Positions 14,395 through 45,249 of a stretch of DNA of 62,177 bases are shown one piece after another; the first letter of the stretch is position 1; every line of letters starts with the position of its first letter. This DNA is from Thermoanaerobacter sp. A7A (lineage in GTDB: Bacteria; Bacillota; Thermoanaerobacteria; Thermoanaerobacterales; Thermoanaerobacteraceae), in contig NZ_AVAF01000108.1 of assembly GCF_000445185.1 (NCBI RefSeq), positions 1 through 62,177 on the forward strand. Direction: 5' to 3'. The notes below the pieces were generated by a model, which did no database searches, had not been told where the DNA came from, and saw nothing but the letters and a program-made list of their open reading frames with translations. The position numbers and the translations under genes were made by a program.

Positions 14395-14645
14395 AAATAA
14401 TGTACAAATCTATTTGTAAATACGATGATGTGGAGTAGTAAGCATGATAAGCTTTCAGAGAGCCGTTGGTTGGTGCAAAACGGTAGCTTCTCCTGCTGAA
14501 ACTCGCCACGGAGTAGGTATACCGAAGTTTAGTAGGTATGCACGGTTACCGCCGTTACAGGTTTGAGAGGGCGCTTTTGCGCCAAAAAGAGTGGTACCAC
14601 GGAAGAGTAGCTCTTTCGTCTCTTATGAGATGAAGGGCTTTTTTT
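14395..14645 (+). promoter_or_regulatory. T-box leader of leuS (tRNA-Leu sensing)
   Basis: The T-box core GAGTGGTACCACGG is at 14589-14602. It is followed by a strong terminator hairpin (arms 14609-14622 and 14627-14639, then T7), which competes with the antiterminator. The upstream stem I region contains a candidate specifier CTC (14502-14504, within GAAACTCGCC), a leucine codon matching the downstream gene. Uncharged tRNA-Leu should stabilise the antiterminator and allow leuS expression. An additional GC hairpin (GGGCGCTTTTGCGCC) precedes the T-box. Confidence 0.92.
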
Positions 14646-34798: not shown

Positions 34799-35231
34799 AG
34801 AAATACTAAACGAAAATAATATCGTATTAAATGTACCATCAGAATCTAAAATACAAGCTATTGAAAGAGTAGGGAATTTGCTTTTTAAAAATGGCTATGT
34901 CGAAAAAGAATATATAGAAGGTATGAAAAAAAGAGAAGAAGATGTAACAACTTATATAGGTAATGGTATTGCTATTCCTCACGGTGTTTCTGAGTATGTA
35001 AAATATATAAAAAAATCTGGAATAGTTATAGCGCAATATCCTAAAGGAGTAGATTTTGGAGATGGAAATATTGCCTATATTGTCATAGGAATTGCAGGCA
35101 AGGGAGATGAACATTTAGAGATATTATCAAAAATAGCTCTTACCTGCCAGTATGAAGAAAATGTCGAGAAATTGAAAAAGGCAAGGACAAAACAAGAAAT
35201 AATAGAAATACTTCAAAAAGGTGATGAATAA
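34791..35231 (+). CDS. mtlF: PTS mannitol EIIA
   Basis: 146 residues, EIIA(Mtl/Fru) fold. The active His is in [19 protein letters not shown] (near residue 65). AGGAGG sits 9 bp before ATG 34791, inside the 3' end of mtlR, so translation is coupled. It transfers phosphate from HPr to the EIIB domain of MtlA, and also signals to MtlR. Confidence 0.95.
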
Positions 35232-35232
35232 T

Positions 35233-36399
35233 ATGTTAAAAGCGGTTCATTTTGGAGCAGGGAATATAGGCAGAGGATTTATAGGATATTTGTTGTATAA
35301 GTCTGGATATGAAATAACTTTTGTTGATATATCAAAAGAATTAGTAGAAAGCATAAATAATTATAAAAGATATAATGTGATTATTTTAAAAGATAATGTG
35401 GAAAAAGAAGAAGTAAAAAACATCAAAGCTATTCATATCGAAGATGAAGAAAATCTATCCAAGGCTATTGTAGATGCAGATATAATTACGACTTCAGTAG
35501 GAGCTAATAATCTTAAGAGCATAGGGGAAAAATTAAGAAATTATTTAAAGATAAGAAAAGCTAACATTGATAAACCTTTGAATATAATGGCATGCGAAAA
35601 TGCACTGTTTGCAACAAATATACTAAAAAATAGTATATTGGAAAAGGGGGATAAAGATTTTATTGAGTACGTAAATCAAAAAATTGGTTTTCCTAATACG
35701 GCTGTGGACAGAATAGTACCGAATGTAGATATAAAGAAAGAACTGCCAATAGATGTAGCAGTGGAAGATTTTTATGAATGGGATATTGAGAAAAAAGCAA
35801 TTATTGGGGATTTAAATATCAAAGGGGCAGAACTTGTCGCTGACCTTGAACCTTATATAGAGAGAAAATTATTTTTATTAAATGGAGCCCATGCTACCAC
35901 TGCATATTTAGGATATTTAAAAGGGTATAAATATATACATGAAGCGATTCAGGACGATTTTATAAGAAATATAGTCTCTAAAATGCAAGAAGAAGCTTCT
36001 ATCGCCCTTTCCAAAAAACATAATATAAAAATTGATAATTTAAGAGAATATTCAAATAAAGTAATAAAAAGGTTCAAAAACTCCTATTTAAAAGACGAAG
36101 TTGTAAGAGTGGGAAGAGAGCCTACAAGGAAATTGTCTGGAAATGACCGGTTAATGATGCCTGCCAAACTTTGTTATGAAATTGGAATTACGCCTGAATT
36201 TATACTATATGGTATAGCTGCAGGGTTTTTGTTTGATTATAAGGAAGACCCTCAAGCTTGTAAAATTCAAGATGACATTAAAAATTTCGGCTTAGAAAAA
36301 ACAATAAGCAAAATTACAGGTTTAGAAGAAAATAGTGATTTATTACATGAAATTGTAAAGAAGTATAAAGAATTAAAAGAAACTTTTAGGAAAAGATGA
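35233..36399 (+). CDS. mtlD: Mannitol-1-phosphate 5-dehydrogenase
   Basis: 388 residues. The NAD-binding [11 protein letters not shown] motif is at residues 8-18, followed by the long-chain polyol dehydrogenase features [11 protein letters not shown], and the catalytic Lys region in '[16 protein letters not shown]'-like sequence. It oxidises mannitol-1-phosphate to fructose-6-phosphate. The start is ATG 35233, with AAGGTGAT upstream; it lies 1 bp after mtlF. It is the last gene of the mtl operon, followed by the terminator that a repeat element has duplicated. Confidence 0.95.
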
Positions 36400-36420
36400 T
36401 ATAGATTGGATTCTATATAA
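36391..36420 (+). terminator. mtl operon terminator, left copy (tract lost)
   Basis: Hairpin ATATAGA-TTGGAT-TCTATAT within a 25-bp direct repeat (36394-36418). The T-run is missing because the repeat element begins right after it. The intact version, with T-run, is on the far side of the element (36687-36720). Confidence 0.75.
36394..36418. repeat. 25-bp direct repeat, left copy, flanking repeat element
   Basis: Identical to 36687-36711. It contains the stem of the mtl terminator, so element insertion duplicated the terminator. A target duplication of this length is unusual. Confidence 0.9.
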
Positions 36421-36421
36421 T

Positions 36422-36688
36422 CTCAGACTGTAGACAAACTTTCGGAAAGGAGATATTTTGCATAAGGAGCGACTTGTGACAAAGCGGTAACAAAACTTAA
36501 CAAGACCGAGGGTGGAGGCAGGGCCGAAGCCATGGATGGCGAAGGCGGGCACCTGAGACAGGATGTCGAATGTGCCCGGAACCCTACCGGAACCCGAAGG
36601 TCGAGCTTAGTTTTGTCGCTTTGGAACACTGGAGCTACAATGCAAAATATCTCCTTTAAAAAATTTTTGACTTTGTCAACAAACTGAG
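36422..36688. repeat. Palindromic terminator-associated repeat element, full copy (267 bp)
   Basis: Ends are CTCAGACTGTAGACAAA and, on the other strand, CTCAGTTTGTTGACAAAG. An 18-bp perfect inner inverted repeat (AAAGGAGATATTTTGCAT and complement) lies about 28 bp in. Further in, CAAAGCG/CGCTTTG and ACAAAACT/AGTTTTGT pair, then a GC-rich core (about 36503-36602) can form a three-way junction with two hairpins (around 36523-36546 and 36547-36577). Internal loops of the core are repeatedly GA/GA type. No ORF is credible. It sits between duplicated terminator copies and is clearly different in base composition from its surroundings. Confidence 0.85.
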
Positions 36689-36720
36689 ATGATATAGATT
36701 GGATTCTATATCGTCTTTTT
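36687..36720 (+). terminator. mtl operon terminator, right copy (intact)
   Basis: The second copy of the 25-bp direct repeat (36687-36711) continues as a complete terminator: GATGATATAGA-TTGGAT-TCTATATCGTC (one G-U pair) and TTTTT. Confidence 0.85.
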
Positions 36721-37054: not shown

Positions 37055-40000
37055 ATGTTTAGGTCAAGGTCAAGGATATTTGCAATATTTGTTGCAGCAA
37101 TAATGGTATTTAGCATGTTTTTCTCTGCGATACCGCAGATAGCCTTTGCTGCAACGTCAAAAACATTTGACTTTATTGAAGTCACCGATTTTCACGGTTA
37201 TTTACAAAATGACGGTAAATTAAGTGATGGGACAATTTATAAGCAGCAAATAGCAGGTGTTTTGGCAAAACAAATTAAAGACATAAAAGCTCAAAATCCT
37301 GACAGAACAGTAATTTTATCGGGCGGAGATATGTTTCAAGGAACACCGCTTTCCAACGTCTTAAAAGGACAACCAGTCATTGACATGATGAAAAACATTG
37401 GTTTTGAAGCGATGACTTTGGGAAATCATGAATATGACTGGGGCATTAATTCAGTAATTGACACGCAAAATGCTACATTGAAAGATTCAACAATTCCCGT
37501 TCTTGGAGCAAATGTGTATGATAAAACAACTGGGAAGCTTGCGAGTTATGTAAAGCCCTATGTAATGATTGAGAAAGATGGGGTTAAAATTGGTATAATT
37601 GGCATTGTAGATAACAAAGAATTCCCAAATATAATAATGCCTGCATATATACAAAATGTAGATTTTAGAGATCCTGTACCTATTGTGAATGACCTAGCTA
37701 AGCAGCTGAGGAGCCAAGGCGCGCAAATAGTTGTTGTACTGGCACATATGGGTGCATCTCAGGATAAATCAGGCAATGTAACAGGCAATCTTATAGATTT
37801 CGCAAAACAAGTTAAAGGCGTAGATGCCATATTTGGCGGACATACCCATACAATTGTTACTACCAGAATAAATGGAATACCAGTAGGTGTTGCTGGAAAT
37901 TATGGGAAAGGGTTTATTGATCTAAAGATAACAGTAAATGATGACGGTACTATTACAACAGGTGACATGCAATATATTGATATTACAAGTTTGTATTCTA
38001 CACAAAATCCTGTAGTAGATCCTGATGTACAAGCCATTGTTGATAAAGCTTCTAAAGATGTGGGACCTATATTTAACGAAGTTATAGGTCAAGCTGCAAT
38101 AGATTTGACAAGGACTCAAAGTGCACAACCTTATGGAGATTCTCTCTTAGGTAACTGGGCAGCACAAGTTACAAAGGATGCAGTAGGAGCAGATTTTGGA
38201 TTTGCCAATAATGGTGGATTAAGGATTGATATTCCAAAAGGCGATATAACTGTTGGAATGATGTATCAATTGATGCCTTTTGACAACACAATAGTTACAA
38301 TGAAAATGACAGGGGCGCAAGTAAAAACTATCCTTGAGCAGGCTGTACAAGATGGTGGCAAGGGTATACAGGTTGCGGGACTTACTTTCAAGTATGATCC
38401 ATCTAAGCCTTCAATGCAAAGAGTATTTGACATGAGAAAGTCCGACGGAACGCCAATACTTATGGATAAAACTTATCTTGTTGCGACAAACAACTTTATG
38501 GGCACTGGCGGAGATGGCTTTACAGGATTTACAGACCATGATGTTGCAAAAACTTATATTGACACATATAAGCTTGTAAGAGATGCATTTATAGATGCAG
38601 TTAAAGCCCAAAAGACAATTACTTCAAAAATAGATAATAGAATTGCACCGGCTAAAATGAGTGATGCGACAATAACAGTACTTGCTACGTCAGATATACA
38701 TGGCAATATATTCACATGGGACTACAACACTGCAAAACCTGCGAATAGAGGTCTTGCAAAAGTAGCTACCTATGTAAAACAAGTAAGAGCTCAATATCCT
38801 TATGTGGTATTAGTAGATAATGGAGATACAATTCAAGGAACGCCACTTTCTTACTACTATGACAAAATAGATACTAAAGCAGAGTATCCACTGGCAAAAG
38901 TAATGGGAGCAATGAAATATGATACTTGGACATTGGGCAACCATGAATACAATTATGGACTTGACGTCTTAAATAGGGTCATAAAAGACATGAGAAGTGA
39001 AGGTATCCATGTGCTTTCAGCAAATACTTACAAAGATGACGGAACAAACTTTGTTGACCCTTACTATATTAAGACATTTGATACGCCACAAGGACCTGTA
39101 AAAGTGGGTATATTAGGCCTTACGACTAAAACTATACCATCATGGGAAGATAAAGACCACTATGCAGGATTACACTTTAATGACCTTGTAGAGGAAGCAA
39201 ATAAGTGGGTGCCTAAGTTAAGAGCAGCAGGAGCAGAGATTGTAGTTGTTACTATGCATTCAGGCGAAGAAAAGCCGACAGATGTGATACCAGAAAACCA
39301 AGTTATTGCTGTAGCAACGAAGGTAAATGGCATTGATGCAATAGTTGCAGGACATACACATGCTATTATATCACAGCATACGTATAAAAACCCAGCTGGC
39401 GAAACAGTGATAGTGACAGAACCTGGTAGATGGGGACAATATGTATCACAGATATACTTTGACATTACCAAGAATGCAGAAGGTAAATGGGTAATTGATG
39501 ATAAATGGAGTACAACCATAAAAATGGACGATTCTATACAGGCAGATCCTGACATCATTAAACTGGCACAACCATATCAAGATGCAACGCTTAAATATAT
39601 AGGAACAAAAATCGGTGTTGCAACAGGTGATTTCTTAGGTACTGATCAAACAATAAAAGAGACCGCTATAATGGACCTTATCAATAAAGTTCAAAAATAT
39701 TATGCCAAAACTGATCTATCAATTGCTGCACCACTTAGCAGTTCAGCAAAGATATTGAAAGGCGATATAACAATTCAGGACATCATGGGTGTATATGTAT
39801 ATGAAAACTACTTGTATGGAATAAAGATGACAGGAAAACAATTAAAAGACTGGATGGAATGGTCAGCAAGGTATTACAAACAAGTTTCCTCGCCAAATGA
39901 TCCTATAACAAAAGATCCTACTTTGAATATACCTGATTACAATCTTGACCAATTGTACGGTGCAAGCTATGTAATAGATTTAACACAACCTGCAGGACAT

Positions 40001-40735
40001 AGAATTAAGAATCTCAAAGTCAATGGCAAACTTGTAAAAGATGACGATGTATTCACAGTAGCAATAAACAACTACAGATTCAACGGCGGCGGTGGATTTA
40101 TGCAAGCTGCTGGAATAACAAATCCAGAAATTGTATTTGATTCCGCAAAAGCTTATGGCGACGACGGACAGGTAAGGAATTTGATGATCAGATATATTCA
40201 AGAGCATGGTACAATTACACCAACCGTCGAGAATTACTGGTATGTATCAACTACTCCTGTGGCAGAAGAAACACCATCACCAGTAACACAACCAACACCT
40301 GCTCCAACTCCGCAACCACAACCTGCACCACAACCTGTATACAACTATGGCATTGTAACTGCATCAGCGCTTAATGTGAGGGCAGGCGCAAGCACTTCAA
40401 GCAAAATTATAGGAGTACTTCCTGCCGGAAAAGTTGTGACATTGCTTGAAGAAGTCAACGGCTGGTACAAGATTGACTACAATGGCGAGACAGGATACAT
40501 CTACGGCAAATACGTTGCTGCAACGCCAAATCCGTCAAATGTAACTGTTTTGAAAGCTGTAAAAGTCACTGCTAAGAGCGGATTAAATGTAAGAGTAGGG
40601 AATTCTATAAATGCAAAGAAGATAGGAGCAGTACCATATGGTACAGAACTAAAAGTAGTTGGAGAATATAATGGATGGTATCAGATACAGTATAATGGCG
40701 GATTTGGATATGTATACGCAAAATATACAAAATAA
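37055..40735 (+). CDS. Secreted tandem 5'-nucleotidase / 2',3'-cyclic phosphodiesterase with SH3 repeats
   Basis: 1226 residues. A signal peptide (about 1-32) ends at AFAA. First unit: metallophosphatase with TDFHGYL (about 43), GGDMFQGTPLS, GNHEYDWG and GGHTHT (about 262), then a 5'-nucleotidase C-terminal domain with NNGGLR-type sequence (to about 520). Second unit: SDIHGN (about 547), DNGDTIQGTPLS, LGNHEYNYG, AGHTHA, and a second C-terminal domain to about 1060. A Pro/Gln linker (about 1072-1098) leads to two bacterial SH3 domains (about 1105-1160 and 1172-1226) for wall binding. The layout resembles B. subtilis YfkN. It scavenges nucleotides and phosphate outside the cell. Confidence 0.92.
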   Translation: MFRSRSRIFAIFVAAIMVFSMFFSAIPQIAFAATSKTFDFIEVTDFHGYLQNDGKLSDGTIYKQQIAGVLAKQIKDIKAQNPDRTVILSGGDMFQGTPLSNVLKGQPVIDMMKNIGFEAMTLGNHEYDWGINSVIDTQNATLKDSTIPVLGANVYDKTTGKLASYVKPYVMIEKDGVKIGIIGIVDNKEFPNIIMPAYIQNVDFRDPVPIVNDLAKQLRSQGAQIVVVLAHMGASQDKSGNVTGNLIDFAKQVKGVDAIFGGHTHTIVTTRINGIPVGVAGNYGKGFIDLKITVNDDGTITTGDMQYIDITSLYSTQNPVVDPDVQAIVDKASKDVGPIFNEVIGQAAIDLTRTQSAQPYGDSLLGNWAAQVTKDAVGADFGFANNGGLRIDIPKGDITVGMMYQLMPFDNTIVTMKMTGAQVKTILEQAVQDGGKGIQVAGLTFKYDPSKPSMQRVFDMRKSDGTPILMDKTYLVATNNFMGTGGDGFTGFTDHDVAKTYIDTYKLVRDAFIDAVKAQKTITSKIDNRIAPAKMSDATITVLATSDIHGNIFTWDYNTAKPANRGLAKVATYVKQVRAQYPYVVLVDNGDTIQGTPLSYYYDKIDTKAEYPLAKVMGAMKYDTWTLGNHEYNYGLDVLNRVIKDMRSEGIHVLSANTYKDDGTNFVDPYYIKTFDTPQGPVKVGILGLTTKTIPSWEDKDHYAGLHFNDLVEEANKWVPKLRAAGAEIVVVTMHSGEEKPTDVIPENQVIAVATKVNGIDAIVAGHTHAIISQHTYKNPAGETVIVTEPGRWGQYVSQIYFDITKNAEGKWVIDDKWSTTIKMDDSIQADPDIIKLAQPYQDATLKYIGTKIGVATGDFLGTDQTIKETAIMDLINKVQKYYAKTDLSIAAPLSSSAKILKGDITIQDIMGVYVYENYLYGIKMTGKQLKDWMEWSARYYKQVSSPNDPITKDPTLNIPDYNLDQLYGASYVIDLTQPAGHRIKNLKVNGKLVKDDDVFTVAINNYRFNGGGGFMQAAGITNPEIVFDSAKAYGDDGQVRNLMIRYIQEHGTITPTVENYWYVSTTPVAEETPSPVTQPTPAPTPQPQPAPQPVYNYGIVTASALNVRAGASTSSKIIGVLPAGKVVTLLEEVNGWYKIDYNGETGYIYGKYVAATPNPSNVTVLKAVKVTAKSGLNVRVGNSINAKKIGAVPYGTELKVVGEYNGWYQIQYNGGFGYVYAKYTK

Positions 40736-43685: not shown

Positions 43686-43699
43686 TATGTACTATCCCT
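43678..43699 (+). terminator. Terminator hairpin lacking T-run, beside repeat element
   Basis: GGGGATAGT (43678-43686) pairs with ACTATCCCT (43691-43699), overlapping the stop codon. The expected T-run is replaced by the CTCAG end of a repeat element. Confidence 0.7.
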
Positions 43700-43794
43700 C
43701 AGTTTGTTGACAAAGTTAAAAAATTTTCAAAGGAGATATTTGCATCGTCGCTCCGATGTTTCCAAAGCGACAAAACTAAAGCTCGACCTTCGGC
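43698..43794. repeat. Terminator-associated repeat element, truncated copy
   Basis: Matches the reverse complement of the right half of the 36422-36688 element with scattered differences: CTCAGTTTGTTGACAAAG, AAAGGAGATATTTGCAT, CCAAAGCGACAAAACTAAAG and GCTCGACCTTCGG. Similarity stops in the GC-rich core, so about 60% of the element is missing. Confidence 0.85.
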
Positions 43795-44163: not shown

Positions 44164-45249
44164 ATGAATAGCAAGGATATTGCAAGGATTGCAGGTGTTT
44201 CACGTAGTACAGTTTCAAGAGTAATAAATAATTATCCGAATGTTCCGCCTGAGACTAAAGAAAAGGTCTTAAAAGTTATCAGGGAATATAATTATGTTCC
44301 TCACGCTTCAGCAAGGATGCTTAGAGGAAAAAGTTCAAAAACTATTGGATTGGTGATAGTTGATTTAAAGAAAAATAGTGATATTCATAAGGTGTATGAT
44401 AATGTTTACTTTGGGCCTTTTACGACGGCGGTTATTGATTTTGCGAATCAATTAGGCTATAACGTGCTTGTGATAACTGTTTACAAAACAAGAGATTACA
44501 AGAAAGTAAGAGAAGTCTTTTATAACAAGACTATAAACGGTGCGATTTTTATTGGAGTAAAAAATGATGATCCAGATATAAAAAATTTAATTGAGGCTGG
44601 ATTGAAGACTGCTGTAATCGACCAGGAAATTAGGGAAGATGAAGATGACGCTTTTAACAAAAGCATTATAGTGAACATGGATAATGTAAATGGTGCGTAT
44701 GAAGCGACAAAATATCTAATCAATTTAGGGCATACGGAAATTGCTCATATAACAGGTGATATGGAAAAACTTTCTGGATTTGCAAGATTAGAAGGATATA
44801 AAAAAGCATTGAAAGAAGCGGGTATTCCTTTTAAAAGCAGCTTAGTTGTAAAAGGCGATTTTGTTGAAGAAAGTGGTTATAAAGCTGCATATAAATTATT
44901 TAAAAAGGCAAAACCGACTGCAATTTTTGCATCAAACGATCAAATGGCTATAGGAGCTATGCATGCTTTAGAAGAGATGGGATTTAAAGTACCTGAAGAT
45001 GTTTCTATAATCGGATTTGATGATATTACAATATCTCGTTATTTAAAACCTGCTTTAACAACAATGAGTGCGTCTTTATTGCAAATGGCGGAATTGGCGG
45101 TAGAAAATTTGATTAAGTCTATTGAAGAAGAAATAGCTATTACAGCTAAATTTGTTGTTCCTGTAAAACTTGTAGAAAGAGAATCCTGTAAAAGAATTGA
45201 AATGCAAAGAGAAAAAATAAATGATAAATATGCACTAACTATGAAATAA
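44164..45249 (+). CDS. LacI/GalR-family transcriptional regulator
   Basis: 361 residues. The N-terminal HTH MNSKDIARIAGVSRSTVSRV and hinge helix 'ARMLRGKSSKTIGLV' (about 50-63) are intact. The periplasmic-binding-like effector domain includes YLINLGHTEIAHITG, FASNDQMAIGAMHALEEMG and VPEDVSIIGFDDITIS. The length is slightly above normal because of a C-terminal tail. It has its own promoter with an operator over the start site. It probably represses the downstream ABC transporter and glycosidase operon, induced by a beta-linked sugar. Confidence 0.93.
   Translation: MNSKDIARIAGVSRSTVSRVINNYPNVPPETKEKVLKVIREYNYVPHASARMLRGKSSKTIGLVIVDLKKNSDIHKVYDNVYFGPFTTAVIDFANQLGYNVLVITVYKTRDYKKVREVFYNKTINGAIFIGVKNDDPDIKNLIEAGLKTAVIDQEIREDEDDAFNKSIIVNMDNVNGAYEATKYLINLGHTEIAHITGDMEKLSGFARLEGYKKALKEAGIPFKSSLVVKGDFVEESGYKAAYKLFKKAKPTAIFASNDQMAIGAMHALEEMGFKVPEDVSIIGFDDITISRYLKPALTTMSASLLQMAELAVENLIKSIEEEIAITAKFVVPVKLVERESCKRIEMQREKINDKYALTMK

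Follow-up and report, generated by a model that had tools for sequence, protein, structure and literature searches.

A mobile element behind mtlD in Thermoanaerobacter carries a TwoAYGGAY-type RNA with candidate CsrA-binding loops

Fold and family of the RNA core

What RNA, if any, folds behind the mtlD gene of Thermoanaerobacter sp. A7A, what carries it there, and which protein might it meet? The window analysed here is a stretch of 62,177 nt (contig NZ_AVAF01000108.1), for which an initial annotation had drawn a three-way junction at 36503-36602 and proposed a selected RNA within a mobile element. All helices of that drawing are present at the positions in Table 1 and are contained in the minimum-energy fold of 36480-36625, whose energy of -65.2 kcal/mol compares with -43.5 (sd 3.66) for dinucleotide shuffles (z = -5.9); none of 200 shuffles was as stable. 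Outward, the core helix continues through AAAGCG/CGCTTT and then ACAAAACT/AGTTTTGT, and the inner inverted repeats of the element (Table 1) lengthen it further.

The internal loops of the core are G-A rich (GGA/GGA, GAA/GAA, CTGA/GAAT), as described earlier, and symmetric or nearly so. The presence of several such loops had suggested a kink-turn RNA bound by an L7Ae-like ribosomal protein. A kink-turn, however, has a 3-nt bulge followed by tandem sheared G-A pairs, and by inspection the predicted folds of 32 copies show symmetric or near-symmetric loops with no such bulge beside tandem G-A; we consider a kink-turn scarcely credible here.

Since 2010, TwoAYGGAY has stood as an orphan among RNA families. 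Its Rfam model, RF01731, matched the core in cmscan over the full-length consensus architecture (model positions 1-168 of 168; 34.0 bits, E = 9e-4), but the score stays below the gathering threshold of 43 bits, as does that of the best copy in the same genome (40.3). At the gathering threshold, the whole window yields a T-box only, a leader at 14416-14626 (+; RF00230, 151 bits). The fold is therefore not new, since a known family lies behind it, and of the Rfam check proposed earlier the family match stood while the score fell short. The element RNA shares the length and the three-way architecture of RF01731 and has two comparable tips; apart from its lower score, it differs in that the tips read ANGGAN, not AYGGAY. 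A covariance model built from Thermoanaerobacter-family copies only (R1) found 22 loci of other families at RF01731 positions, with E values of 3.5e-15 to 1e-3 in 203 kb, and so recovered most RF01731 loci of other families.

In a joint alignment of 70 copies, which was fitted to the structure and so leans pairing counts in its favour, 52 of 53 pairs carry changes on both sides with pairing kept, and 93.7% of cells pair, versus 71.6% after shuffling and at most 43% after sliding by 1-3 columns. A MAFFT alignment that was not fitted to the structure (A1) has 13 of 33 predicted pairs changed on both sides. Compensatory changes among copies, whose lack was to count against a selected RNA, are thus present. 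Energy alone leaves the strand undecided, because both strands fold equally well (-65.2 kcal/mol and z = -7.8 for the opposite strand). G-U cells outnumber A-C cells by 86:27 in close copies, which favours an RNA from the plus strand; the two are balanced (37:35) in distant copies. The core is a strand-specific structured RNA, a divergent TwoAYGGAY, and its RNA structure is well supported by the comparison of copies.

Table 1. Features of the mtlD locus, further element sequences in the window and the hag leader of the same genome
Feature	Position	Strand	Basis
mtlD (mannitol-1-phosphate dehydrogenase); its terminator is the target, RNA in sense with mtlD	35221..36399	+	PF01232, PF08125
Left copy of 30-bp target duplication, mtlD terminator palindrome AGATGATATAGATTGGATTCTATATAATCT, mtlD stop codon inside	36394..36423	.	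direct repeat 93% identical; single in G005 empty site
Whole non-autonomous transposon (MITE), 263 bp, tips CAGACTGTAGACAAA ... TTTGTCAACAAACTG	36424..36686	+ (RNA strand)	repeat/boundary analysis, empty sites in relatives
Promoter-like TAGACA-N17-TATTTT in left end, weak, putative; reads into RNA	36431..36459	+	9/12 matches
Left inner terminal inverted repeat	36436..36463	+	86% complementary to 36640-36667
TwoAYGGAY-type structured RNA: outer stem, stem with G-A-rich loops, three-way junction, two hairpins	36474..36629	+	cmscan, fold, covariation
Core helix GACC/GGTC	36504-36507/36599-36602	+	fold and letters
Core helix GGGT/ACCC	36510-36513/36592-36595	+	fold and letters
Core helix AGGG/CCCT	36520-36523/36582-36585	+	fold and letters
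Hairpin GCCA-TGGA-TGGC	36529-36540	+	fold and letters
Same, as hairpin 1, GCC-AUGGAU-GGC, strict CANGGANG hairpin, putative CsrA site	36529..36540	+	motif scan
Hairpin GGGCAC/GTGCCC with inner GACA/TGTC	36547-36552/36572-36577	+	fold and letters
Hairpin 2, GAC-AGGAU-GUC, 5-nt AGGAU loop (6-nt ANGGAN in most copies)	36557..36567	+	loop comparison
Right inner terminal inverted repeat	36640..36667	-	inverted-repeat partner of 36436-36463
Right copy of 30-bp target duplication, then T-tract	36687..36716	.	direct repeat, empty sites
Fragment of a second element copy, about the last third	43698..43793	-	BLAST, 90% identity
End of a further element copy, cut by contig end	62134..62177	-	BLAST, 89%
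hag leader with two CANGGANG hairpins	L280 1291-1419, G000:C140	-	motif scan

The mobile element and its likely driver

The RNA lies within a 263-bp element that has terminal inverted repeats, a target duplication, no gene and many copies. The sole frame of at least 60 aa across it (104 aa, minus strand) was judged spurious because the copies vary as base-paired RNA. BLAST returned 46 matches in the same genome, fragments and edges included, with about 20 near-complete copies, an under-count since several contigs end inside the element. Many copies are found in all 10 same-genus genomes searched (12-31 in each of the other nine among the matches listed), compared with 0-1 per genome in the family's other genera; the named records that carry the element are Thermoanaerobacter (T. 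wiegelii, T. thermocopriae). Neither an exact-pattern search of viral contigs nor a plasmid search returned relatives.

In all copies with both ends resolved, one and the same palindrome stands at either side of the element, with occasional later substitutions; in most cases it is a terminator hairpin, and a T-tract follows its right copy. A query made by joining the two mtlD-site flanks with one palindrome matched a contiguous empty site in a relative, G005, at 98% over 345/345 positions, where a single intact hairpin is followed by a T-tract; the empty site is nearly full-length also in G007, G004, G001 and G009, five relatives in all. These single-hairpin sites show that the element inserted and duplicated 30 bp. 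Its mobility is well supported by such sequence comparisons, and the initial reading as a selected three-way-junction RNA in a mobile element agrees with the fold, the covarying pairs and the many-copy transposon found here. In G008 (C1:831765-833438, L153), the same mtlD terminator bears a different insertion of ~1.67 kb, which has neither IS1182 similarity nor the tips. Further along the window, 37055-40735 (+) encodes a protein of 1226 aa in which two 5'-nucleotidase units are combined with bacterial SH3 domains.

G006, a complete genome, contains 45 instances of the tip pattern CAGNYTGTNGACAAA, versus 0 in a reversed control, and five tip pairs there are spaced 1566-1568 bp. Each of the three elements of this length that were read holds a protein of 491-500 aa, and the two that were scanned encode an IS1182 transposase (NF033551, E about 1e-148). 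The tips common to the 263-bp element and this same-genus IS1182 element span 15-16 bp each, and the IS is without the RNA core. Palindrome duplication around the IS is plain for L061 and L062 and less evident in the flanks of L060, L063 and L064. An IS1182-family element of 1566 bp is likely the driver of the MITE and presumably transposes it in trans. IS1182 genes of the A7A genome were found only at contig edges or interrupted; one, at G000:C122:123908-124777, has one internal TGA, and the other matches are at contig edges. Two further small elements in G006 (L065 and L066, C1 near 51694 and 2390990) have the same IS1182-type tips around unrelated contents, and L065 likewise lies between two palindrome copies.

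With its IS1182 transposase, the likely driver resembles IS1272/TnSha1 of the IS1182 family. IS1272 targets terminator hairpins without sequence consensus (PMC4923244), and so does the MITE; unlike IS1272, which is reported to delete part of its target palindrome with no duplication (PMC4923244), the MITE duplicates the palindrome on both sides.

Could the fold matter as DNA, an extruded hairpin being recognised in transposition as in single-strand transposons or REP elements? The equal folding of both strands would suit this, as would the shape of the element, a long imperfect palindrome. Yet the likely driver encodes an IS1182 DDE transposase and shares the tips without the core, the excess of G-U over A-C in close copies lies on one strand, and the loop motif described below is likewise confined to one strand. 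We find a role of the fold as DNA very improbable, and the coreless driver also argues against the earlier suggestion that a transposition protein recognises the core.

Hairpin loops and CsrA

The two A(N)GGA(N) loops, a conserved part of the core that the initial annotation had passed over, point to CsrA. In the window copy they read AUGGAU in hairpin 1 and AGGAU in hairpin 2, and position 2 can be any base across copies. An A.GGA or AGGA loop is present in 44/48 and 45/48 close copies for the two loops and in 22/22 distant copies. In the latter, the A, G, G and A loop columns are 89-100% conserved, compared with means of 0.60 for other unpaired columns and 0.54 for paired columns, although the loops are part of both covariance models, so that copies retaining them are more readily found. 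The distant copies leave position 2 and the final loop position free, and the A(N)GGA(N) loops are their most conserved feature. RsmE, a CsrA homologue, contacts the A and the GGA of an ANGGAN hexaloop hairpin (PMC7652899); the conserved A and GGA and the free second and last positions thus follow the pattern of RsmE contacts.

At least one strict CANGGANG hairpin is found on the RNA strand in 64 of 70 copies and on the other strand in 0 of 70; in 84 kb of flanks from the same genome it occurs once. Element copies thereby display the ANGGAN loop in a hairpin that marks CsrA-sequestering RNAs. Counted as bare GGA, the RNA strand has 10, no significant excess over shuffles (7.7, sd 1.9). Within the frame of a LacI-type regulator, the window has a further CANGGANG hairpin, AGCAAGGATGCT (44310-44321, +), probably by chance.

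The csrA gene of the same genome (G000:C140; product of 75 aa) lies between what we take, from sequence, to be a fliW-like gene and hag. Two CANGGANG hairpins, GGCAAGGATGCC and one over the Shine-Dalgarno sequence, are located in the hag leader, in a 156-nt stretch that runs into hag. With these two candidate CsrA hairpins the leader resembles that of B. subtilis hag, in which CsrA binds two sites (PMC7652899).

We also surveyed 398 genomes of the phylum, scoring the best six candidates per genome. RF01731 matched at E 0.001 in 51 of them (33 over the cut-off), and csrA is present in 49 of these 51 versus 232 of the 347 others (Fisher p = 2e-6, ignoring phylogeny and genome size). The two TwoAYGGAY genomes without csrA are both drafts, 94% and 75% complete, and the association holds within IS1182-positive and within IS1182-negative genomes.

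On the basis of motif matches, an earlier study proposed that TwoAYGGAY binds CsrA (PMC4333381). Judged by sequence, both hairpin tips look like CsrA docking sites, and from the motif, the parallel with the hag leader and the co-occurrence with csrA we infer that the element RNA binds CsrA. Like CsrB and RsmY, it presents GGA hairpin loops with CANGGANG; it differs from them in having two sites per RNA, in its many dispersed mobile copies and in its Bacillota-type genomes, and sequestration is putative here.

Transcription, selection and spread

Promoter-like sites such as the weak one in the left end (Table 1) number 7 in 601 bp versus 2.5 expected. Among 25 copies with long flanks, some of which are a single insertion counted in several species, the left neighbour runs in sense with the RNA in 16 (4 of them convergent), both neighbours are antisense in 7, and the orientation of 2 was not assigned. 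Neighbours are thus mixed, and a strict sense orientation of the element was not found. At shared insertion sites, element and flanks diverge about equally, with no consistent difference. Mixed orientation together with the lack of extra conservation over the flanks suggests that selection may act on spreading copies only.

These observations bring up an RNA selected for its own spread and not for CsrA, either as a harmless stable 3' end within terminators or as the ligand of another GGA- or loop-binding protein. A multi-copy mobile element that at shared sites is no better conserved than its flanks would fit such an RNA, and so would the conservation of stems and G-A loops besides the tips. 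It would leave unexplained, however, why no feature is better conserved across families than the A-N-GGA of both tips, why the same hairpin occurs in the host hag leader, and why the RNA is associated with csrA. We regard selection for spread alone as unlikely, though worth keeping in mind.

We favour, as the probable explanation, a mobile CsrA-binding RNA, carried as cargo by a MITE that targets terminators and is moved by IS1182-family transposases. As its flanks show, the MITE inserts at the base of an intrinsic-terminator palindrome, which is then duplicated on both sides, so the right hairpin with its T-tract would still end transcription beyond the element; the IS1182 transposase would act on it in trans. 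The plus strand of the element would be transcribed by read-through of the T-less left hairpin in copies that lie in sense with the gene upstream, or alternatively from the weak left-end promoter. The predicted transcript would fold into a rigid arm whose three-way junction bears two hairpins, each with an A(N)GGA(N) loop, a structure supported by covariation. The two loops may fill the two RNA sites of a CsrA dimer, and the copies could serve as decoys for CsrA or, within 3' UTRs, as elements that recruit it.

The genus may thus scatter dozens of CsrA decoys around its genome. We suggest more tentatively that MITEs scatter tens of two-site decoys over gene 3' ends, so that TwoAYGGAY would serve in Bacillota as a mobile RNA that antagonises CsrA; a review describes FliW as the CsrA antagonist there. 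If CsrA binds, a transposon would rewire a global post-transcriptional regulator by multiplying decoys, and CsrA activity would be tuned, heritably, by the number of element copies.

The orphan family and its proposed CsrA partner were already known; what appears to be new is its carriage by terminator-duplicating IS1182-type MITEs. The passages on TwoAYGGAY that were consulted do not mention transposons. For the family, these findings would define where it resides, how it spreads and which protein partner to test. A mobile element is also the source of a structured RNA in the case of IS200 5'tnpA RNA, which comes from a transposase transcript (PMC12594629); the MITE, in contrast, lacks any recognisable gene and consists mostly of the RNA.

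In many matching genomes of the survey, at least several RF01731 copies are found among the best six candidates. In G067 and G153, two copies each of the RNA are enclosed by tips of this kind and by duplicated terminator hairpins; in G286 (L095) both tips surround TwoAYGGAY, but the right-hand repeat of the hairpin is only partial. These genomes represent three other families, so at least three other families carry TwoAYGGAY with such tips; the tip pattern counts are 22, 59 and 33, respectively, versus 0-1 in the control. G193 (L094) has related tips without the exact pattern. In G064, G384, G275 and G210, TwoAYGGAY is repeated within the genome and the ends examined lack IS1182-type tips; the IS1182 link is therefore not universal. 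The repeats in G384 and G064 (L085, L091, L167-L169, L174-L176) lie between other ends, which points to a different carrier.
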